Positions 3,075 to 14,345 of a stretch of 64,000 bases of DNA are shown here, one piece after another (within the stretch, counting starts at the first letter, position 1; the number at the start of each line of letters is the position of its first letter). The DNA lies in NCBI RefSeq assembly GCF_036192275.1, contig NZ_CP108088.1:8480001-8544000 (forward strand), written 5' to 3'. Under the pieces are notes generated by a model that saw only the letters and a list, made by a program, of their open reading frames with translations, ran no database searches and was not told the DNA's origin. This DNA is from Streptomyces sp. NBC_00250. Its GTDB lineage: Bacteria > Actinomycetota > Actinomycetes > Streptomycetales > Streptomycetaceae. The translations under genes were made by a program, and so were the position numbers.

Positions 3075-3528
3075 GGCTTCCTCCGTACGGTCGTCGGGCG
3101 GTGACGGACTGCCGTACGGCGCGTGGCCGAAACGAGATCCGTCGGTTCCCTGTTCCTCAAGCACGTGAACGGCCTCGTCTCGTACCGCGCTCAGGAACGT
3201 CCCGGATTCCAGGTCCCATGACGTACAGACTGCGACCCGCCCATTCCGACATCGTGAGAGAGCCTCCTCCAGGTCATTCTCTGCTCGACCCCACAAGATC
3301 GCCCCCTGAGCCAGGGGCCGTCCCGCCGGGTGCCGTTGGCCCCGGCTGCGGGCGGGTGCCGCGCCCGACTCTCGGCCGATCCTCGGGGTCGCGATGGCCG
3401 CGTGGCCGTACGAAGCGGATGGCGTCCACCTGTGACGGAAGCGAATCGGCAGGCCCCTGGGGCGGCTTCCCCGAAGGAGCCCTTCATCAGCCCGTTCCGC
3501 TACGAGCCCCTTGGGCGACGCCTTGCGC
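3075..3528. other. Intergenic stretch with degenerate coding traces
   Basis: About 450 bp with no gene I can support. On the minus strand the frame of the 2745-3074 gene runs open through it and contains protein-like pieces (DLESGTFLSAVRDEAVHVLE), but third-position GC is only about two thirds, well below neighbours. A second minus frame begins with ATG at about 3258 after GGAGGAGG, giving a 31-codon peptide. Together these suggest an eroded small gene. The far right end contains the regulatory boxes listed separately. Confidence 0.35.
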
Positions 3529-3569
3529 AGGGCCGACCGGTCCCTTCCCGGAGCGGACCGTTCGGCCCT
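3529..3569. promoter_or_regulatory. Two OsdR/DevR-like boxes upstream of hsp20
   Basis: AGGGCC-GACC-GGTCCC lies at 3529-3544 and CGGACC-GTTC-GGCCCT, the same motif in reverse, at 3554-3569, 25 bp apart start to start. The same 16-bp pattern (GG-rich arm, four spacer bases, complementary arm) recurs at 5882, 7392, 7413, 10560 and 10583. Mycobacterial DevR boxes have the related GGGAC...GTCCC form. They end about 130 bp before the hsp20 start, so hsp20 and the flavodoxin gene are the likely targets. The link to the regulator at 12533-13219 is inference. Confidence 0.55.
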
Positions 3570-3699
3570 CCTCGGCGGCCCCGTTGGGCACTCCACCGTG
3601 CGAGGGCACGGCGGAAGAGTGGGTTACGGAGTCGGACCCGGCTCCTTGACCGGTCCGCGGGACCACACGAGTCCCAGGACCACGGACCAGGAGGGAACG

Positions 3700-4155
3700 A
3701 TGTCCGGAGGCAAGGTGGAACGCAGGCGCAGCCTCTTCCCCGACTTCAACGACCTGTTCAACAGCGAGTTCCCCGGACTGCCCGGATGGCGCCCCGCCAC
3801 GGCCGCCCACTCCATCCCGGTGGAGATGTCCACCGGCGACGGCGGGTGCGTGCTGCGAGCAGAGCTGCCCGGGATGGACCCGGAGGACATCACCATCACG
3901 GTCGACGACGACCTCGTCACGGTGCGTGCGGAGCGCGGCGAGAGCGAGCAGGACAAGGAGCATTCGGAGTTCCGCTACGGAGCGTTCCGCAGGACCGTGC
4001 GCCTCCCGGCGACGATTCCGGCAGACGGTGTCGACGCCTCGTACAAGGACGGCGTTCTCACCGTCCGCGTCCCCATGCCCGACGAGGCCGGCAAGAGCGG
4101 GCGGACCATCCAGGTGAAGCGGGGCGACAGCGCCTCCCAGGGAGAGACGTCATGA
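3700..4155 (+). CDS. Hsp20/alpha-crystallin family small heat-shock protein
   Basis: 151 residues. An ATP-independent holdase chaperone of the cytoplasm. The alpha-crystallin domain spans about residues 40-140: the start HSIPVEMSTGDGGCVLRAEL, the ELPGMDPEDITITVDDDLVT strand, a FRYGAFRRTVRLPATI segment, and the hallmark A-x-x-x-x-G-V-L-T-V (ASYKDGVLTVRVP). Start ATG at 3700 follows GGAGGGAAC. The gene overlaps the flavodoxin gene by four bases (ATGA), so the two are translationally coupled. Two OsdR-like boxes lie about 130-170 bp upstream. In mycobacteria the equivalent (Acr/HspX) is the most strongly DevR-induced protein. Confidence 0.95.
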   Translation: MSGGKVERRRSLFPDFNDLFNSEFPGLPGWRPATAAHSIPVEMSTGDGGCVLRAELPGMDPEDITITVDDDLVTVRAERGESEQDKEHSEFRYGAFRRTVRLPATIPADGVDASYKDGVLTVRVPMPDEAGKSGRTIQVKRGDSASQGETS

Positions 4156-4655
4156 ATCCGAAGCGCGTTCTCGTCGCCTACGGCAGCAAGCACGGTGCGA
4201 CCGCCGGAATCGCCGACGAGATCGGCCGGACGCTGCAGGCCGACGGTATCGACGCGGTCGTCGTGCCGGCCGAGGCCGTCACCGACGTCAGCGTTTACGA
4301 CGGAGTCGTCCTCGGCGGCGCCCTCTACGCCGGGCACTGGAACGGCAAGGCGCGCCGGTGCGCCCGGCGCAACGCCGCACAGCTGCGGGACCGGCCCGTC
4401 TGGCTGTTCAGCAGCGGTCCCGTGGACGGTTCGGCCGAGCAAGGTGACGTTCCGCCTGTCCCCGGTGTGGCCCGTCGTATGAAGAAGCTCGGCGCGAGGG
4501 AGCACGTCACCTTCGGTGGCTCCATGACCGCCGAGACACCCGGTCCGATCGCCCGTGCCCTGGTCCGGCAGGGGAAAGGTGGGGACTTCCGCAACCCGGA
4601 GCGCATCCGGGCCTGGGCGCACCACATCGGAACCGAACTCGTCGCCGCCCGCTGA
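4152..4655 (+). CDS. Flavodoxin-domain protein (HemG/flavodoxin-like)
   Basis: 167 residues. The N-terminus RVLVAYGSKHGATAGIADEI is an FMN phosphate-binding loop of the flavodoxin fold (T/S-x-x-G-x-T/A). Next come VYDGVVLGGALYAGHW (second FMN loop) and a RPVWLFSSGPVD strand. The closest known groups are the menaquinone-dependent protoporphyrinogen oxidase HemG and short flavodoxin-domain proteins found beside Usp genes in actinobacteria. Length fits. It starts inside the hsp20 stop codon (ATGA overlap), so it is the second gene of that operon. Likely a low-potential electron carrier or quinone-linked reductase used under hypoxia; the partner is unknown. Confidence 0.8.
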   Translation: MNPKRVLVAYGSKHGATAGIADEIGRTLQADGIDAVVVPAEAVTDVSVYDGVVLGGALYAGHWNGKARRCARRNAAQLRDRPVWLFSSGPVDGSAEQGDVPPVPGVARRMKKLGAREHVTFGGSMTAETPGPIARALVRQGKGGDFRNPERIRAWAHHIGTELVAAR

Positions 4656-4735
4656 GCGGGGGCCTCGGCCGCCCAGGCGGCCCACCCGGAGGCGCGACAT
4701 GGCCCACCGTGGGCCGGCCCTGTCCGGGAGCGAAG

Positions 4736-4770
4736 CCGTGGGGCGGGCAGTGGCCGTGGGGCGGGCAGTG
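4736..4770. repeat. 17-bp direct repeat in a convergent intergenic region
   Basis: CCGTGGGGCGGGCAGTG occurs at 4736-4752 and again at 4754-4770. It lies between the ends of the flavodoxin and CBS genes; nothing else is evident in 4656-4904. Confidence 0.7.
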
Positions 4771-4904
4771 TGGGAGCACCCGGAGCGCGTCCGTCGGTCC
4801 GGGTGCTGTCCAGGTGGTTGCTCACCGACTCAGGTCGGTGGTGGTCACCTGGGACACGCTGTGAACCTGCGCGGCCGGTTCGCGCCTCGCACGGGGACGG
4901 CATG

Positions 4905-4946
4905 GCACGCCTATACCTCGGCGTCGCACGCCTACACCTCGGCGTC
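4905..4946 (-). repeat. 21-bp tandem duplication spanning the CBS-protein stop codon
   Basis: The unit at 4926-4946 is repeated at 4905-4925 with one mismatch. Read on the minus strand the duplicated unit holds the last four codons and the TAG stop, so a second in-frame copy of Asp-Ala-Glu-Val-stop follows the real one. See the finding on stop-codon duplications. Confidence 0.85.
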
Positions 4947-5585
4947 GGCGGTGAGCTCGCACCGTACGTCCACCACGCCTTCGACCGCTCGCGCCAGACG
5001 TGCCGCGACGGGGACCAGGGAACTGTCGCGGACCCGTCCGGACAGGGTCACGACGCCCTCCTCGACATGGACGTCGATCCGGTGGTGAGAGGCGGGGAAC
5101 AGATGCTCGACGACGTCGTGGCGGACCTCGGCCGCGAGGCCCTCGTCCGGACGGAGGAACACCTTCAGGAGGTCGGACCGGCTCACGATCCCCCGGATCG
5201 TGCCGTGTGTGTCGACGACCGGCAGTCGTTTCACACCGTGGGCGGCCATCAGGCGGGCGGCCTGCGGCAGCGCGGCGTCGGGGGCGACGGTGATCGCGGG
5301 CGAGGTCATCAGATCCGCCGCCCGTCGGGAGCCGGCCTTCGCCGTCGCGCCGAGCCGCCTCATCTGCTCGATGAGTCCGAGGCGGTGGTCGTGGAACTCC
5401 TCCTTGAGGAGCAGGTCCGCCTCGGAGACCACTCCCACGACACGGCCCTCGCCCTCGACCACCGGTAGGGCCGTCACCTTCCACCGCTCCATCGCGGCGA
5501 CGATCTCCTTGAACTCCGCGCCGGGCCGCACGGCGACGACCTTTGTGGTCATCACATCGGCGACGGTGAACGGCCGGGTGGTCAT
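4932..5585 (-). CDS. CBS-pair and BON domain protein (copy 1)
   Basis: 217 residues. CBS domain 1 at about 8-62 (VADVMTTKVVAVRPGAEFKE ... VVGVVSEADLL), CBS domain 2 at about 92-143 (LMTSPAITVAPDA ... GIVSRSDLL), then a BON domain (about 150-215, IDVHVEEGVVTLSGRV). Tandem CBS domains bind adenine nucleotides or S-adenosylmethionine; BON domains usually bind membranes or other proteins. ATG at 5585 follows GAGGAG. Two paralogues with the same architecture lie at 9849-10472 and 42759-43391. Such CBS+BON proteins are regular members of Streptomyces stress islands; the biochemical role is unproven. Confidence 0.9.
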   Translation of the reverse strand: MTTRPFTVADVMTTKVVAVRPGAEFKEIVAAMERWKVTALPVVEGEGRVVGVVSEADLLLKEEFHDHRLGLIEQMRRLGATAKAGSRRAADLMTSPAITVAPDAALPQAARLMAAHGVKRLPVVDTHGTIRGIVSRSDLLKVFLRPDEGLAAEVRHDVVEHLFPASHHRIDVHVEEGVVTLSGRVRDSSLVPVAARLARAVEGVVDVRCELTADAEV

Positions 5586-5595
5586 GGTTGTCTCC

Positions 5596-5805
5596 TCACC
5601 GGGCGCAGGTCGGGGGTTCCGCGTTCGTCCGCGTCGCCGCGACGGTGTCGCACCGCCTCCTGGCGGCCCGCAGCAAGCGGTCGGCGTGCTGCGGCTCGCG
5701 GAAGACGCGCGTTCCCGCGGGGAACGCGGCGGGGCGGGCGTGTTCGAGGAGCCGGTCGCGGGCCTCGGGAGCGACTTCGTCCAGCGGGGTCCGCGTGGTG
5801 CTCAT
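5596..5805 (-). pseudogene. N-terminal fragment of a Crp/Fnr-type cyclic-nucleotide-binding protein
   Basis: A 69-codon frame from ATG 5805 with GGAGGA upstream. It reads as the beginning of a cNMP-binding domain: RLLEHARPAAFPAGTRVFRE then QHADRLL, the usual first strands (F-P-A-G-T-x-I-F-x-E-G-x-x-A-D-R). After that it falls into non-homologous, arginine-rich sequence and stops 10 bp before the downstream CBS gene start. Full cNMP-domain proteins of this sort are about 150 residues and are common in DevR/OsdR regulons. Truncation by deletion is the simplest reading. Confidence 0.65.
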
Positions 5806-5881
5806 GGTGTCCTCCAGCTCTTCTCCCACAGGCTCCCGCGCGTCGGGTTGCCGACGGCAGGGCCGCGCAGGCCAAACCGAG

Positions 5882-5897
5882 GGGGCCGAAGGGCCTG
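5882..5897. promoter_or_regulatory. OsdR-like box upstream of the Crp fragment and CBS gene
   Basis: GGGGCC-GAAG-GGCCTG, matching the AGGGCC-GANN-GG(T/C)CC pattern found elsewhere in this island. It lies about 77 bp upstream of the leftward 5805 start and just past the end of the MBL gene. Confidence 0.45.
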
Positions 5898-5899
5898 GG

Positions 5900-7327
5900 T
5901 CAGCGGACCAGGACGGCTTCTCCGGAGCGGGGCACGACGGCCGTCCAGCCCAGCTCGTGGTCGATGCGGTCGCGCAGGGCCTCGGAGGCGGCCGGTTCGC
6001 CGTGCACGAGGTAGGTGGTGTGCGGGGGAGGAGCGCCGCGCAGCCAGTCGACGATCTGGCCGGCGTCGGCGTGGGCCGAGAAATGCGGGACGTCGGCGAC
6101 CTCGGCCCGTACGGGCACGTACTCGCCGAACATCTTCAGCACCCGCGTCCCGTCCACCAGGTCCCGCGCCCGGGTGCCGGCCGCGGCGAAGCCGATCACG
6201 ACCACGGCGTTGCGCGGGTCGGGAAGGATCCGGTGCAGGTGGTGCAGGACGCGGCCGCCGGTGGCCATGCCGGCCGAGGAGACGATGACGGCGGGGCCGT
6301 GCGTGTTGTTGATGTCGATCGACTCCTGCACCGTTCGCGCCGCCTGGAACGGTTCGGGACTCAGAGCCGCTGCGCCTTGGGCCAGGATCTCCGGGCGCAG
6401 CTCCGCCGAACGCTCGGCCACCGCGTCCTGGTAGACGTCGAGGGCAGCCAGGGCCATGGGGCTGTCCACGTAGACGGGGACCGACCGGGGCAGGACGCCG
6501 GTCGTGCGCAACCGGGTCAGTTCGTGCAGGACGACCTCGGTGCGGTCGATCGCGAAGGAAGGGATCACGACGGTGCCGCCCCTGGTCACGGTCCGCTCGA
6601 TCACGGCGGCGAACTCTGACCGGGCGGACTCCTGGTCGTGCCGTCGGTCGCCGTACGTGGACTCCATGAGCAGCACGTCGGCGCCGGAGAACGGCTCCGG
6701 GGGCAGCAGCAATGGGTGCCCTGGTCGGCCCAGGTCCCCGGAGGCGGCCAGGGTATGCCCGTCCTCCAAGGTCAGGTGCGCCCACGCCGACCCGAGGATG
6801 TGCCCGCCGCGGTGGAGCCTCAACCGGGTGCCGGCCATGATCTCCACGTCCTCGCCCACGGCGATCCGGTCGAAGAACGCCAGCGTCTTCTCCACGTCGG
6901 AGTCGTCGTACAGAGGCTTGGCCGGGCGGTGCCGCGACCAGCCGTGCTCGTTGGCGTGCCGGGCGGCCTCCACCTGGAGCCGTGCGCTGTCGCGGAGCAC
7001 GATCCCGGCGAGCCGGGCGGTGTGTGCGCTGGACAGGATCGGTCCCCGGAAGCCCTGCCGGACCAGGCGGGGCAGGTAGCCGCAGTGGTCCAGGTGAGCG
7101 TGGGTGACGACCACGGCGTGAATGTCGGCGGCGTCGCGGGCGAACCGCTCCCAGTTGCGGCGCCGCAGGTCCGCGAAGCCCTGGAACAGACCGCAGTCGA
7201 GGAGGATCCGCGCGTGGTCGCTCTCGATGAGGAACTTGCTGCCGGTGACCGTGCCCACACCGCCCAGAAAACTCAGCAGAGCAGGTCGCGAGCGGGTGGG
7301 GGCTGGGTTCGGGGCTGCCTCGGACAT
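5900..7327 (-). CDS. MBL-fold beta-CASP hydrolase with RMMBL domain (RNA-specificity type)
   Basis: 475 residues. Metallo-beta-lactamase motif HAHLDH at 76-81 binds two zinc ions. The beta-CASP insert follows in the middle, and the C-terminal RMMBL segment has [19 protein letters not shown] and [17 protein letters not shown]. The family includes CPSF73-like ribonucleases and bacterial YsgF-type proteins; this short bacterial type is often called MBL fold metallo-hydrolase RNA specificity domain and is a DosR-regulon member in mycobacteria (Rv2004c neighbourhood type). ATG at 7327 follows GGAGGG; an upstream open frame lacks signals. It is divergent from the alcohol dehydrogenase gene with two OsdR-like boxes between. 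Probably processes or degrades RNA during stress; not shown here. Confidence 0.88.
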
Positions 7328-7391
7328 GGCCGGCCCTCCTTCGGAACGTGATCCGGACTCCACGTTCGCACCGGTGGCGGCCGGGTCCCCA

Positions 7392-7428
7392 GGGCCCGAC
7401 CGGTCCCTCCTCTGGGCCGATCGGCACA
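7392..7428. promoter_or_regulatory. Pair of OsdR-like boxes between divergent MBL and ADH genes
   Basis: GGGCCC-GACC-GGTCCC at 7392-7407 and TGGGCC-GATC-GGCACA at 7413-7428, start points 21 bp apart (two helical turns), in the 175-bp divergent region. Placed to control both the MBL hydrolase and the alcohol dehydrogenase. Confidence 0.6.
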
Positions 7429-7502
7429 TGCGTGGTTGTGGGCCGGCGGCCGAGCCTGGTCGAGGGAACACCCGAACGCGCGAGAGGAAGTGGGTGGGCG
7501 CC

Positions 7503-8585
7503 ATGAAGGCAGCCGTCTTCCACGGCCCGGGCAGTGTCGCCTGGCAGGACGTACCGGACCCCGGCATCAAGGACCCCGGCGATGCGATCGTTCGGGTCGA
7601 CGCCGTCACCATCTGCGGCACGGACCTGCACATCCTCAAGGGGGACGTGCCGGAGGTGACGCCCGGCCGGGTCCTCGGTCACGAGGCGGTGGGCACGGTC
7701 GTCGAGACAGGCCGGGACGTGCGTACCGTGCGCCCCGGGGACCGCGTCCTGATCTCCTGCATCTCGGCCTGCGGCCGGTGCCGCTTCTGCCGCGAGGGCC
7801 GCTACGGACAGTGCCGTGGTGGGGGAGGCTGGGTCCTCGGCCACACCATCGACGGCACACAGGCGGAGTACGTCCGGGTGCCGTTCGCCGATCTGTCCGT
7901 CCACCCGCTGCCGAACTCGGTCGACAGCTTCGACGCCGTCCTGCTCGCCGACATCTTCCCCACCTCCTACGAGGTGGGCGTCCTGAACGGCGGCGTCCGG
8001 CCGGCCGACACGGTCGTCGTGGTCGGTGCCGGTCCCATCGGTCTCGCCGCCATCGCCACGGCAGGCTTCTACAGCCCCGGACGGATCGTCGCCGTCGACC
8101 TCGCGGAGTCCCGGCTGGCCGCCGCCCGCAAGCTCGGCGCCGACGCCACCGCGACGGCCGACGAAGGTCCGGAGCAGCTCGTCGCGGATCTCACCGACGG
8201 CCTGGGTGCCGATGTCGTGATGGAGGCGGTGGGCGTCCCCGAGTCCTTCGAGATGTGCACGCGCATGGTCCGTCCCGGCGGGCGGGTCGCCAACATCGGC
8301 GTCCACGGCAAGCCGGCGGCCCTCCACCTCGAAGACCTGTGGATCAAGGACGTCACGATCACCACCGGCCTGGTCGACACCTCCTCCACCCCCATGCTGT
8401 TGCGCATGATGGCGGCCGGACGGCTGCCCGCGGCGGAACTGGTCACCCACCGCTTCGCACTCGACCAGATGGAGGAGGCCTACGATGTGTTCGGCCGCGC
8501 GGCCGACACCGGCGCCATCAAGGTCGCGCTCGGCGGCCCGCAGCACACGGCCGTGCAGATGCCCGACACTCCGGCCGCCGGATGA
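7503..8585 (+). CDS. Zinc-dependent alcohol dehydrogenase (MDR family)
   Basis: 360 residues. Catalytic zinc ligands Cys38 ([10 protein letters not shown]), His60 and Glu61 (GHE) and the four structural zinc cysteines 90, 93, 96 and 104 are all present. The NAD(P)-binding fingerprint [14 protein letters not shown] follows near residue 170. It oxidises a secondary or primary alcohol, or reduces the matching carbonyl, with NAD(H). ATG at 7503 is preceded by GAGAGGAAGTGGG. Same family as the ADH genes found in OsdR/DosR-type islands, where it may regenerate NAD+ when respiration stops. Substrate unknown. A strong hairpin follows the stop codon. Confidence 0.92.
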
Positions 8586-8610
8586 ACGGTCCGCCCACGG
8601 GTCCTTCGCC

Positions 8611-8642
8611 GCCGCGCGGTGTCGTTCTCGACACCGCGCGGC
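8611..8642 (+). terminator. Hairpin terminator after the alcohol dehydrogenase gene
   Basis: A perfect 14-bp stem (8611-8624 with 8629-8642) and a four-base TTCT loop, 25 bp after the stop codon. No U-run follows, as is common in Streptomyces. Confidence 0.7.
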
Positions 8643-8708
8643 GTTCTCCTCGACTCGGCTTCTCCGCACGCGGCGGCCTGGAAGACCGCGTTCGACACGT
8701 GTCTCGAC

Positions 8709-8770
8709 GAGTCGACGCCCGAGGCGGGGCACGGGTGTGAGTCGACGCCCGAGGCGGGGGGCACGGGTGC
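8709..8770. repeat. 30-bp tandem direct repeat in the ADH-nitroreductase gap
   Basis: The unit beginning GAGTCGACGCCCGAGGCGGG starts at 8709 and again at 8739; the second copy has two extra Gs. It lies between convergent genes; no coding sequence is evident in 8643-8818. Confidence 0.85.
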
Positions 8771-8818
8771 CGTTCGACGCGGATGCCGAGTGCCGCCGCT
8801 TCGCGCCGGAGAGGGCTT

Positions 8819-8856
8819 CAGTCGAAGGTGAGCACCTCAGTCGAAGGTGAGCACCT
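8819..8856 (-). repeat. 19-bp tandem duplication spanning the nitroreductase stop codon
   Basis: CAGTCGAAGGTGAGCACCT occurs at 8819-8837 and 8838-8856. On the minus strand it holds the last codons (Val-Leu-Thr-Phe-Asp) plus TGA, so the gene end and its stop are present twice in a row. Confidence 0.9.
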
Positions 8857-9826
8857 CGGAGACCGGCCGACGTGGTGTGGACCGCCCCTTCGGGCCGTAA
8901 CCGAGGCGGATGACCATGTGGACGAAACCGGTCGCGGACTCCGGATCGCGTGCGACGGAGCGGAGTTCGGGCCACTCCAGGGGCTGGGACATGAGGGAGG
9001 TCGACAGTCCGTCGAGGGTGGCCTGGAGCAGAACCCGTTGCAGCCCCTGGCCGGCCGTCAGCCACTGCCGAGGAGTGTCCTCGGCCGTGCTGAGGAGGGC
9101 GATCTGGGGCTCCTTCTCGAAGCGCGCCGTGGCCCGCTCCGGCACGTGCCGAGGTGAGTCGAAGTCGCGGATCGGCGAGGTGACGTCGTACTGCCGCGGC
9201 CCGAAGGCGTACGAGGGGATGCCCTCGGTCGCGGAGCCCTCGCCGGAGGTACCCGTGCGGGTCCAGGCGGCGATCTCCGCGCGAACCGCCTCGTCGGCGG
9301 CCTCCAACCGCTCGGATTCGTGGACGATCCCGAGCACGGTGTCGGTGTGCCAGGCCCCCGGGACGACCAGCCGGCAGCCCTCCAGGAGGGCCGCGGCGCG
9401 CAGACCGTCGATCAGCTCGGAGGGGATCCGCTCCTCGGTGAAGGGGAAACGGCTGGTGTGGCGCCGAGGCAAGGCGGCGTGGAGCGCGGTGAGGCCGCCG
9501 TCGGTGTCGTCGGGGCCGTGGAGTTCCACGTCGGCGAAGTGCCATGGGTCCTCGGGTCGGGGCAGGAGTCGGACGACGGCGTGCCGGCCCCGGTGCGCGG
9601 CGGCGACCCTCAGGCCGAACAGGGCGGCGCCGCAGCCGAGATGGAGAGCACGGTGGTCGGGGTCCTCCTGGGGCATGCGGCGCAGCGGGTCGCCGTGCAG
9701 CTCGATGACACCGGAGCCCGTCGGGTGGACGAACCTCCAGGGCTGCGCGTTGTGCATCGAGGGAGCTTTGACGGCATCTTCGATCAGTGACGTCACGAGC
9801 GGTCGGGTCAGAGCGGTGGTAGACAC
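8837..9826 (-). CDS. Acg-family nitroreductase-fold flavoprotein
   Basis: 329 residues. The N-terminal APSMHNAQPWRF is the nitroreductase FMN-binding signature (x-P-S-x-x-N-x-Q-P-W). The protein is a tandem, longer form of the fold, as in the Acg family (mycobacterial Rv2032/Rv3127/Rv3131), which is DosR controlled. Acg itself binds FMN but lacks reductase activity, so function here may be flavin storage rather than catalysis. GTG at 9826 begins 22 bp after the stop of the CBS+BON gene, so the two form an operon behind the boxes at 10560-10647. Its last codons and stop are tandemly duplicated. Confidence 0.88.
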   Translation of the reverse strand: MSTTALTRPLVTSLIEDAVKAPSMHNAQPWRFVHPTGSGVIELHGDPLRRMPQEDPDHRALHLGCGAALFGLRVAAAHRGRHAVVRLLPRPEDPWHFADVELHGPDDTDGGLTALHAALPRRHTSRFPFTEERIPSELIDGLRAAALLEGCRLVVPGAWHTDTVLGIVHESERLEAADEAVRAEIAAWTRTGTSGEGSATEGIPSYAFGPRQYDVTSPIRDFDSPRHVPERATARFEKEPQIALLSTAEDTPRQWLTAGQGLQRVLLQATLDGLSTSLMSQPLEWPELRSVARDPESATGFVHMVIRLGYGPKGRSTPRRPVSEVLTFD

Positions 9827-9848
9827 GGTTCGTCCTGTCTGCGGTGGG

Positions 9849-10472
9849 TCACCAGATGACCGGATGGGGAGTGCGGGCCGGGGCTGCGGGGGGCGTGTCG
9901 TCCTCGTGGAAGGTCAGCCGGTCCACGACGGCGACGACACCGTCCACGCTCTCGGCGAGTCGGACGAGCATCAATGCCTGGCTTCGCCGCCGGACACGAC
10001 CTGCGAGCGTCACCACACCGTCGAGGACGTGCACGTCCACCGCGTTCCCGGGCAGGTTCATGACCTCCGCGAGGACGTCCTCACGGATGCCGTCGCGTAC
10101 CTCCGCGTCCGGGCGGAGATAGACGCACAGCAGATCGCGGCGGGTCACGATGCCCACCAGACGCTCTTCCTCGTCGACCACCGGGAGGCGCTCGACGCCG
10201 CGACGCACCATCAGCCGTGCCGCGTCCGCCACCGTCTCCTCGGCGTGAACCGTGATGGCCGGCCGGGTCATCAGGCCCCGGGCCGTCAGCTCGTCGCGGG
10301 CCAGGAGATCGCTCTCGGAGACGACTCCGACGACGTGGTCGTCGTCGTCCACCACCGGGACCCCGGTGATGTCGTGTTCGGCGAGCAGCTTCGCCACTTC
10401 CTTGAACGAGGTCGCGGGGACGGCGGAGACCACGTCGTCGGTCATGAGACCGCCGATCTTCATGTGCTTCAT
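9849..10472 (-). CDS. CBS-pair and BON domain protein (copy 2)
   Basis: 207 residues. CBS 1 at about 8-60 (LMTDDVVSAVPATSFKEVAK ... VVGVVSESDLL), CBS 2 at about 72-125 (LMTRPAITVHAEE ... GIVTRRDLL), then BON (about 135-195, VDVHVLDGVVTLAGRV). ATG at 10472 is preceded by AGGAGG with ideal spacing. It heads the leftward operon with the Acg nitroreductase and is divergent from the histidine kinase gene, with three OsdR-like boxes in between. Same architecture as 4932-5585 and 42759-43391. A nucleotide-sensing role is likely but unproven. Confidence 0.9.
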   Translation of the reverse strand: MKHMKIGGLMTDDVVSAVPATSFKEVAKLLAEHDITGVPVVDDDDHVVGVVSESDLLARDELTARGLMTRPAITVHAEETVADAARLMVRRGVERLPVVDEEERLVGIVTRRDLLCVYLRPDAEVRDGIREDVLAEVMNLPGNAVDVHVLDGVVTLAGRVRRRSQALMLVRLAESVDGVVAVVDRLTFHEDDTPPAAPARTPHPVIW

Positions 10473-10559
10473 CGCCGTTCCTCCTGTTCGGGGATCGGAG
10501 GGTGAGGAAGGGGCGGCTTCCCGTGTCACCACCCTCCGACGCGCGCGTGGCGGGCGGCG

Positions 10560-10647
10560 AGGGCCGAATGGTCCACCGTCCCTGGTCTGAGCGGCCCTCG
10601 GACGTACGGGGACCGGCTGCCAGGGTGGAGACGGTCCATCGGGCCAC
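10560..10647. promoter_or_regulatory. Cluster of three OsdR-like boxes between CBS and kinase genes
   Basis: AGGGCC-GAAT-GGTCCA at 10560-10575; TGGTCT-GAGC-GGCCCT (reverse orientation) at 10583-10598; and a weaker CGGTCC-ATCG-GGCCAC at 10632-10647. They lie in the 320-bp divergent region between the CBS/nitroreductase operon and the sensor kinase gene, suggesting autoregulation as well as control of the operon. Confidence 0.55.
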
Positions 10648-10747
10648 GTAAGGAGAGCCATGGCTTTGCCTCGGCTCGCTCCGTACGAACCGCGTTCCAC
10701 CCGAGGACCTGACGACAGGACCACAGGCCGTCCCCGGACTACCGTGA

Positions 10748-12529
<1,782 letters not shown>

Positions 12530-12532
12530 GGG

Positions 12533-13219
12533 CTACTTCTCCTCGTTGTCGTGCTCGTGGACCTGCGCGGCGATGACGGCGGCCTGCACACGACGTTCCA
12601 CGCCCAGCTTGGCCAGCAGGCGCGAGATGTGGTTCTTGACCGTCTTCTCCGACAGGTACAGCTGTTTGGCGATCTGCCGGTTGGTGAGCCCCTCGCCGAT
12701 CAGGTCGAGCACGGACCGCTCCCGCTCGGACAGCACGGCAAGGCGCTCGTCCTCCGGCGGTTTCGCCGCCTCAGGGTCGCGCAGCGAGTGCATCAGGCGG
12801 GCGGTGGTGGCCGGGTCGAGCATCGACTGCCCGGTGGCGACGGTCCGTACCGCCGAGACGAGATCGGATCCCTTGATCTGCTTGAGGACGTATCCTGCCG
12901 CTCCCGCCATGATGGCGTCGATGAGGGCGTCCTCGTCGTCGAACGACGTCAGCATCAGGCACGCGAGCTCCGGCATGCGGGAGCGCAGCTCGCGGCACAC
13001 GGAAATGCCGTCACCGTCCGGCAGCCGCACGTCGAGCACGGCCACATCGGGCCGCAGCGCCGGCCCCCTGGCGAGGGCCTGGTCCGCCGTCCCCGCCTCC
13101 CCGACCACCTGCATGTCGGGCTCGTCGTCGATGAGATCGCGCAACCCCCGGCGGACGACCTCATGATCGTCCACGAGGAAGACCCGAGTGGGTGAGTCGG
13201 CGCCCGGCAGCTCGGTCAT
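12533..13219 (-). CDS. NarL/FixJ-type response regulator, DevR/DosR/OsdR-like
   Basis: 228 residues. Receiver domain 10-130 with acidic pocket Asp17/Asp18, phosphoacceptor Asp63 (VAVLDVRLPDGDG), the threonine in MLTSF and lysine in YVLKQIKG. The LuxR-type helix-turn-helix (about 160-215) reads LSERERSVLDLIGEGLTNRQ and KTVKNHISRLLAKLGVERR, very close to DevR. ATG at 13219 is preceded by CAGGGA. It is the presumed partner of the kinase at 10793-12529 and the candidate reader of the AGGGCC-N4-GGTCCC boxes across 3.5-10.7 kb. Called OsdR in S. coelicolor; I leave the symbol blank because orthology was not tested. Confidence 0.9.
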   Translation of the reverse strand: MTELPGADSPTRVFLVDDHEVVRRGLRDLIDDEPDMQVVGEAGTADQALARGPALRPDVAVLDVRLPDGDGISVCRELRSRMPELACLMLTSFDDEDALIDAIMAGAAGYVLKQIKGSDLVSAVRTVATGQSMLDPATTARLMHSLRDPEAAKPPEDERLAVLSERERSVLDLIGEGLTNRQIAKQLYLSEKTVKNHISRLLAKLGVERRVQAAVIAAQVHEHDNEEK

Positions 13220-13562
13220 CGCGATCCCTGAGGTGAGTGGAACCCTGCCCGCCCCTCATAAGGATTGTCCGCCATGAGACGAGTTCAGTCGTCTTCAGGC
13301 GTCCTCGTGGGCACCGGCACCCGCTGACGACCCCCTCCGGACATGCCGGCGTCGTTCACCACGGGCAGCCGTTCCACTCTGCGTGTGGCCACAGCCACGA
13401 CCTGTGCACCCCGCAGGCCGGCATCAAGCCCACCTCGGAGGGCGTGGACAGCGACACGCTCGCGGGGCCGCCGGGCGCGACCTGGCGGCGGACACGTGAA
13501 CAATGGGGGTAATGAGCCATCGCCACAAGGGAGTTGCCGAAGCTCCGCGATACGTTGAGGGT
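13220..13562. other. Intergenic region, possible small CBS-domain trace
   Basis: About 340 bp between the regulator and a methyltransferase gene. On the minus strand near 13330-13420 the translation includes VVAVATRRVERLPVVNDAG, which resembles the H-x-V-x-R-L-P-V-V-D core of a CBS domain. It is too short to call a gene; it may be a remnant, given three CBS genes nearby. No clear promoter recognised. Confidence 0.25.
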
Positions 13563-14345
13563 GTGACTGACATGGAATCGCGTATCGACACGTCCCGGCC
13601 GCACACCGCCCGGATATGGAACTACTGGACCGGCGGCAAGGACAACTACCCGGTCGACCGGGAGGCGGGCGACATGATCCGGGAGCTGCATCCCGGGATC
13701 GGGGAGTACGCGAAGGCGGACCGGCTGTTTCTGGGGCGGGCGGTGCGGTACCTGGCCGAGCGGGAGGGCATCCGGCAGTTCCTGGACATTGGGACGGGGC
13801 TGCCGAGCGCCGACAACACGCACGAGGTCGCTCAGCGCGTCGCCCCCGACGCGCGTGTCGTGTACGTGGACAACGACCCGCTCGTGCTGGCGCACGCCCG
13901 TGCCCTGCTGGTCGGGACGCCCGAGGGTCACACCGACTACCTGGACGCCGATCTGCGGGACGTCGACACGATCCTGGCCGCCGCGGCGAAGACGCTCGAT
14001 CTCTCGCAGCCGGTCGCTCTGATGCTGCTCGGGGTGGTCATCTTCGTCGAGGACGACGAGGAGTCGTACGCGATCGTCCGCCGGCTCATGGACGCGCTCG
14101 CCCCCGGCAGTCACCTCGTCCTGTCGCACACGGTCACCCACCCCGACATGCCGGACGTCGACGCGGCGGTGGCGTTCTGGAACGAGCACGGCACGCCGAA
14201 GCTCACCCAGCGGACTCCTGCCGCCGTCGCCCGCTACTTCGACGGCCTGGAGCTGCTCGACCCCGGGGTGGTGTCCTGCTCCGCGTGGCGGCCGGAGACG
14301 CCGACGGCGGATGTCGCGATGTACGCGGGCGTCGGCCGTAAGTAA
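13563..14345 (+). CDS. SAM-dependent methyltransferase, DUF574 (PF04672) family
   Basis: 260 residues from the GTG at 13563; ATG at 13572 is equally possible. The family's start motif SRPHTARIWNYWTGGKDNYP is complete, followed by FLDIGTGLPSADNTHEVAQ (the SAM-binding motif I) and VVYVDNDPLVLAHA (motif II acidic residue). These proteins are abundant in Streptomyces (dozens per genome) and mostly uncharacterised; some act near regulatory genes. The gene stands alone and is followed by a strong intrinsic terminator. Substrate unknown. Confidence 0.88.
   Translation: MTDMESRIDTSRPHTARIWNYWTGGKDNYPVDREAGDMIRELHPGIGEYAKADRLFLGRAVRYLAEREGIRQFLDIGTGLPSADNTHEVAQRVAPDARVVYVDNDPLVLAHARALLVGTPEGHTDYLDADLRDVDTILAAAAKTLDLSQPVALMLLGVVIFVEDDEESYAIVRRLMDALAPGSHLVLSHTVTHPDMPDVDAAVAFWNEHGTPKLTQRTPAAVARYFDGLELLDPGVVSCSAWRPETPTADVAMYAGVGRK

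Follow-up and report, generated by a model that had tools for sequence, protein, structure and literature searches.

Predicted OsdR-type operators in a shortened, inverted second copy of a DevS-DevR-like island in Streptomyces sp. NBC_00250

Within a stretch of 64,000 nucleotides (nt) from Streptomyces sp. NBC_00250 (contig NZ_CP108088.1, here C1, positions 8,480,001 to 8,544,000; hereafter the window, numbered from its first letter), a box of 16 base pairs (bp) recurs in a gene island that also encodes a histidine kinase and a response regulator. An earlier note on this DNA took the box as the mark of an OsdR/DevR-type regulon. We find that the lead was correct, as the box agrees with a printed consensus, the island encodes DevR- and DevS-like proteins, and the sites recur upstream of orthologous genes; the operator is of a known type, and the island adds one unusual detail of wiring. 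We give a probability of about 0.86 to the reading that the boxes are predicted operators of a DevR/OsdR-type two-component system responding to low oxygen and possibly to nitric oxide (NO) or carbon monoxide (CO). Box identity, position and conservation, the protein residues and the trimmed inverted copy were all read from the DNA. The operator and its regulator type have been in print since 2016 and are hence not new here; the new point, within a limited literature search, is a duplicated and trimmed island with a rewired regulator.

The recurring box corresponds to the published OsdR palindrome

As judged by its letters, the recurring box is the printed 16-bp OsdR palindrome of Streptomyces, with the consensus AGGGCCGATCGGCCCT. 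OsdR binding to this element was demonstrated by electrophoretic mobility shift assay (EMSA) with mutated sites (PMC5069765, in its available part), so the exact Streptomyces site, which the earlier note had offered as an inference, was already published. A score matrix was derived from the 25 Streptomyces coelicolor sites in Table 1 of that paper, the window sites not being in the training set; its maximum is 22.3, and window sites were passed at a score of at least 9. Six of the eight positions that had been proposed (3529, 3554, 7413, 10560, 5882 and 7392) pass this threshold, while 10583 is doubtful and 10632 was dropped, as the matrix gives no score above 2 within 2 bases of it. As in the OsdR regulon, the palindrome lies 5' of the target genes, which include those for a zinc alcohol dehydrogenase (ADH) and a metallo-beta-lactamase-fold protein (MBL):

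3529-3544, + strand: OsdR-type box upstream of hsp20-flavodoxin, pairing with 3554; matrix score 14.9
3554-3569, + strand: OsdR-type box, second of the pair in the hsp20 promoter; score 14.7; conserved
5882-5897, + strand: OsdR-type box upstream of a short open reading frame (ORF) and a CBS-BON gene; score 10.0
7392-7407, + strand: OsdR-type box, secondary, in the ADH/MBL divergent promoter; score 9.4
7413-7428, + strand: OsdR-type box, primary, in the ADH/MBL divergent promoter; score 11.5
10560-10575, + strand: OsdR-type box in the CBS-Acg promoter, its 5' edge 233 nt before the kinase start; score 10.7
10583-10598, + strand: doubtful secondary site; score 5.0

The proposed pairing at 21-25 bp is reproduced by the spacings, which are 25 (3529/3554), 21 (7392/7413) and 23 bp (10560/10583), the partner in the 23-bp pair being the doubtful site. 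A further pair, 21 bp apart (scores 14.8 and 11.3), was observed about 33 kb before the window at L037:6606-6642 (C1:8446606-8446642). This pair (8446606/8446627) falls within a called ORF of 835 amino acids that has no Pfam match above cut-off and whose start codon may be wrong.

Boxes are conserved upstream of orthologous genes

Conservation of the predicted operators is stronger proof than counts, and it carries the case. It was assessed in 80 loci around the regulators of named relatives, plus the fuller copy of the island in the same genome (the left island, described below). Orthologue rows had to pass filters on identity and match start and to have 250 nt or more of upstream sequence; the reversed matrix served as control. 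A box scoring at least 9 is found upstream of 25 of 25 orthologues of the CBS gene (main box at -82 to -96; control, 2) and of all ten ADH orthologues (at -86 to -98; control, 0), as well as 4/5 MBL and 3/4 hsp20 orthologues (control 0 for each). The 25-bp pair of the hsp20 promoter is also present in L065, L080 and the left island, and is absent in L098. The first CBS gene (CBS1) is boxed in four of six loci, at -128 to -317, the exceptions being L079 and the left island (control, 0), and the flavodoxin gene in three of seven (control, 0). Boxes directly before Acg are few (2/28; control, 1), as expected because Acg is a downstream gene.

In the 26 CBS promoters compared, pairwise identity is 92% in the box columns, 73% at the neighbour site and 42-58% in the other flanks; the alignment was anchored on each promoter's best-scoring place, a choice that favours the box. 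In 25 of these promoters, the neighbour with the best score within 19-26 bp lies 21-22 bp away; in the window it lies 23 bp away and is weak (5.0). Of 11 promoters, just those of the window and L087 score at least 9 at the place equivalent to 7392.

The island encodes DevS- and DevR-like proteins

The kinase and regulator genes of the window are convergent:

10793-12529, + strand: DevS/OsdK-like histidine kinase, GAF-GAF-HisKA_3-HATPase, 84% identical to the left copy
12533-13219, - strand: DevR/OsdR-like response regulator, convergent with the kinase, 92% identical to the left copy

Both ORFs are intact. The kinase, which has the domain order of DevS/OsdK sensor kinases, matches DevS-type GAF-A chains (4e-53 to 1e-46), the top chain being 2vzw, which we take to be DosT. 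It keeps the equivalents of the proximal haem ligand His149 and the distal Tyr171, with numbering mapped from the chain alignment; the roles of these haem GAF-A residues are taken from PMC4082495, in its available part. The regulator combines a NarL-type receiver with a GerE domain, aligns with Mycobacterium tuberculosis DevR (3c3w) over residues 12-220 (1.6e-73) and retains the equivalents of DevR D54 and K179/K182/N183, residues named in the accessible text of PMC5999986 and PMC3029386. These alignments and retained residues uphold the claim of a DevS-DevR-like pair. DevR binds a high-affinity site and then, cooperatively, an adjacent weak one (PMC3029386, same text), which fits the strong-plus-weak box pairs seen here.

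A third DevR-like regulator, a 61% paralogue, lies at C1:4795843-4796481 (L036:9843-10481), with no box in its 350 nt upstream and no such kinase within about 2 kb. It may correspond to the orphan SCO3818, described as a second cognate regulator of SCO0203 in the available part of PMC5069765.

Two copies of the island differ in gene content and wiring

Window positions 3530-13276 match C1:1014021-992404 in inverted, collinear blocks with 80-85% DNA identity, and on this alignment the window island is an inverted, shortened copy of the fuller left island. On the 9.16-Mb contig, the left island is about 1.0 Mb from one end and the window copy 0.7 Mb from the opposite one, which probably puts them on opposite arms of a chromosome that we infer from relatives to be linear. 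The left island is boxed at the hsp20, ADH/MBL and CBS-Acg promoters, as is the window, and the 16-mer of box 10560 recurs there identically on the other strand at 999481. It is also fuller and more strongly boxed (0.99-1.04 Mb), with extra Usp, CBS and transport genes; in L032-L035 (C1:991210-1043000), boxes stand before Usp, CBS-BON, DUF305, hsp20 and MFS genes and before a row of cyclic-nucleotide-binding (cNMP), CBS and regulator genes. Several gene blocks are missing from the window copy, which retains the following features in addition to the kinase and regulator:

3700-4155, + strand: hsp20 (small heat-shock protein); Pfam HSP20, 1.7e-20; start codon inferred
4152-4655, + strand: flavodoxin-domain protein, overlapping hsp20; Pfam Flavodoxin_5, 1.5e-15
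4932-5585, - strand: CBS-BON protein; Pfam CBS, BON
5599-5805, - strand: short ORF that may be what is left of a crp-like, cNMP-binding gene; weak match only
5900-7327, - strand: beta-CASP metallo-beta-lactamase-fold RNase-like protein (MBL); Pfam Beta-Casp, RMMBL
7503-8585, + strand: zinc alcohol dehydrogenase (ADH); Pfam ADH_N, ADH_zinc_N; start codon inferred
8837-9826, - strand: nitroreductase (Acg in the earlier note), downstream of CBS-BON; Pfam Nitroreductase, 1.9e-11
9849-10472, - strand: CBS-BON protein, first gene of the CBS-Acg operon; Pfam CBS, BON
10660-10747, + strand: deletion scar with remnants of two lost genes, the start of usp (about 10660) and, after it, the 3' end of the P-type ATPase gene (about 10672-10747), from blastn and translations against the left island
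13220-13391, - strand: region upstream of the regulator, with no box; left-copy homology ends at 13276, and a piece of a CBS gene lies at 13317-13391

The short ORF had been described as a truncated crp. This is plausible, given a match of 22 residues to the cNMP protein of the left island (one-sequence search, E 6e-4), and not established, as a Pfam search gave no match. Box 5882, upstream of this ORF, sits in a 303-bp stretch opposite just 73 bp of the left copy.

The kinase side of the two islands differs by a deletion. In the left island, a usp-usp-P-type ATPase-kinase row shares its boxed promoter with CBS-Acg; the ATPase is called a P-type cation ATPase from the Pfam assignment of its L053 orthologue, on which ground a reading of the gene before the left kinase as a pyruvate phosphate dikinase was rejected. 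The window has lost the first three genes of this row, so that the usp start runs straight into the ATPase tail and the kinase is left behind the old promoter. Box 10560, which had been assigned to a CBS-Acg operon/kinase pair, is thus the CBS-Acg promoter box, shared in the fuller island with the operon that ends in the kinase. Upstream of the kinase, L046, L052, L065, L142 and L145 likewise have a usp-usp-ATPase segment that is shortened or lost, with gene-tail remnants in some.

The regulator side differs as well. The cNMP-CBS-regulator row of the left island has an upstream box scoring 14.3, so the regulator's operon promoter is boxed in that copy, while the best matrix score across the 1.5 kb upstream of the window regulator is 3.2 and no box is called. 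An S-adenosyl methyltransferase gene (Methyltransf_19, 13572-14345) adjoins the regulator where the left island has the cNMP and CBS genes. As scored by the matrix, then, the kinase of the window copy keeps an upstream box and the regulator has none, and any feedback in this copy would run via the kinase.

This arrangement is uncommon among relatives. In 42 window-type loci (at least 84% identity, the window and left islands included; L058, L068 and L104 were too short and left out), 38 have a site scoring at least 9 in the 1.5 kb preceding the regulator gene (control, 6), and only the window, L055, L061 and L085 have none. As a positive control, 34/37 relatives below 84% identity have a box scoring at least 11 in the same interval (control, 3). 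Counting only the nearest 350 nt, the regulator is boxed in 34 of the 80 loci (control, 3). The idea that window-type regulators form a clade lacking autoregulation was rejected, as many stand in boxed cNMP-CBS-regulator or CBS-regulator rows. Three loci (L076, L077 and L078) each hold two family regulators, one boxed (18.7 to 22.3) and one of the window type with no box in the 350 nt upstream. The link between kinase and box depends on reading the kinase as the last gene of an operon: a box is present at the called operon start in 24 of 42 kinase loci, and in 19 of the 24 with at least three genes. For the five such loci without one (L050, L053, L054, L057 and L064), the absence may stem from faulty gene calls by the script.

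In a tree built from kinase plus regulator for 49 loci (with 45 distinct sequences; our trees were of the quick kind, without bootstraps), the window copy joins L061 and L142, the latter being one of two copies in genome G093 (support 88), and the left copy joins Streptomyces flavochromogenes L053 (support 97). The copies thus group apart, which indicates that there are two coexisting island lineages; transfer and an old duplication both fit these data. On its regulator side, L142 has no cNMP or CBS gene and no box scoring at least 9, and the other G093 copy, L143, has both. A tree of the regulators, which includes two very long rows (L095_1 and L107_1), places window-type and 74-80% relatives in separate groups, most of the latter with a strong box at about -103. 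Two such regulators (at least 83% identity) occur in at least 8 of 151 genus genomes among the matches listed, one of these genomes (G037) having a partial match. The same-species genome G003 has one match among the matches listed, and the window island may thus differ from strain to strain.

The box signal is regional

The signal is regional rather than genome-wide. Six hits scoring at least 9 fall in the 9.9 kb at 3401-13300, where 1.26 are expected (P ~0.002) from a background of 51 such hits in 400 kb of the same genome (twenty 20-kb stretches, 4.3% of the genome); as the window region was picked because of the finding itself, its P values are only indicative. With hsp20 starting at 3700 and ADH at 7503, all six hits are non-coding (1,534 bp, expected 0.24, P ~2e-7). 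By the script's own gene calls, the non-coding hits number only two of the six (in 1,182 bp; 0.18 expected; P ~0.015); the script uses a simple G+C-frame method that tends to extend starts and runs hsp20 and ADH further 5'. By the same script, the left-island stretch 992404-1043000 (50.6 kb), selected after its hits were seen, holds 11 hits scoring at least 11, nine of them non-coding, and six pairs 20-25 bp apart, compared to 20 hits, one non-coding, and no pairs in the 400-kb sample. In the entire 100 kb taken on the left side there are 13 hits scoring at least 11 (expected 5, P 0.002), ten of them non-coding.

Proposed mechanism and alternative explanations

Binding, signal and direction of control most likely follow those of the related systems. 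The kinase would sense gas via its haem GAF domain and be turned on by low oxygen (or NO/CO), and would then phosphorylate the window regulator, its 92% twin near 0.99 Mb, or both. The phosphorylated dimer would occupy a strong box first and then its weaker neighbour, at a distance of about two helical turns, and would thereby activate hsp20-flavodoxin, the CBS gene, the MBL/ADH pair and CBS-Acg.

Several results weigh against this reading. The consensus is not in genome-wide excess (at up to 3 mismatches it has 121 matches, its reversal 158), nor is GGGCCGANNGGNCC (40+36 versus 48+49 in the control), and within the window there is no enrichment of the loose form GGGCCGANNGGYCC at 2 mismatches (88 versus 85.6 expected). 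A regulon marked by a genome-wide box excess was rejected, as none of the three counts has one. The refutation test suggested in the earlier note thus comes out as no global excess, yet the regional clustering and the conservation are strong. Four of the six window sites count as coding by the script, and the hsp20 and ADH starts are putative. The kinase's own 350 nt upstream is boxed in 4/34 relatives, the same as the control (4/34), and an own box before the kinase in relatives was rejected on this count. At least three DevR-like regulators are present in the genome, any of which may bind the boxes. The global counts, which do not exceed their controls, would suit chance G+C-rich palindromes in 72% G+C sequence, yet we strongly disfavour this explanation in view of the density, fixed position, pairing and conservation of the boxes relative to the reversed-matrix control. 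It is also very unlikely that the box is read by another regulator, such as a Crp-like or other NarL-family protein: cNMP genes accompany the system and there are 38 NarL-like matches in the genome at E <=1e-30 (with 150 of 189 candidates scored), but the box has the sequence of the EMSA-tested OsdR site (PMC5069765, available part).

A more serious alternative, to which we give appreciable weight though less than an even chance, accepts the boxes as operators and makes the local regulator dispensable, with the twin near 0.99 Mb or the 61% paralogue driving them and the window island a decaying copy that is being lost. The identity of the twin, which shares the segment SEKTVKNHISR with the window regulator, the missing gene blocks, the single match in G003 and the unboxed regulator all point this way; the intact kinase and regulator ORFs and the boxes kept at the promoters of the remaining target genes do not, and the grouping with L061 and one G093 copy indicates that the trimmed lineage has persisted. 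More doubtful, in our view, is a persistent second DevS-DevR module in which the kinase lies inside the regulon and the regulator outside it, independently supplied, with feedback via kinase level only; such a module could prime the autoregulated island or respond before it while sharing one operator. Under the preferred reading, the boxes as predicted DevR/OsdR-type operators, the islands offer a test set for a low-oxygen, dormancy-like regulon beyond mycobacteria, with defined operators, strong and weak partners and two diverged copies in one genome. As a pair, they are a natural experiment in the rewiring of a two-component system that follows duplication or transfer.

Comparison with known systems

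The island resembles the DevS/DosT-DevR (DosR) system of M. tuberculosis in the regulator residues D54 and K179/K182/N183, the haem GAF-A residues of the kinase and the strong-plus-weak pairs. It differs in having kinase and regulator on opposite strands. Compared to the M. tuberculosis DevR system, the box here is also G+C-richer and the target set partly different.

With OsdK/OsdR (SCO0203/SCO0204) of S. coelicolor, it shares the 16-bp palindrome and kinds of target, as Table 1 of PMC5069765 includes Usp, zinc alcohol dehydrogenase, nitroreductase and Crp-like genes; this likeness is one of box and target kinds, rather than of directly compared protein sequences. In S. coelicolor, osdR and osdK form an operon (PMC5069765, available part), whereas kinase and regulator are convergent here, the window regulator is unboxed and the island is present twice.

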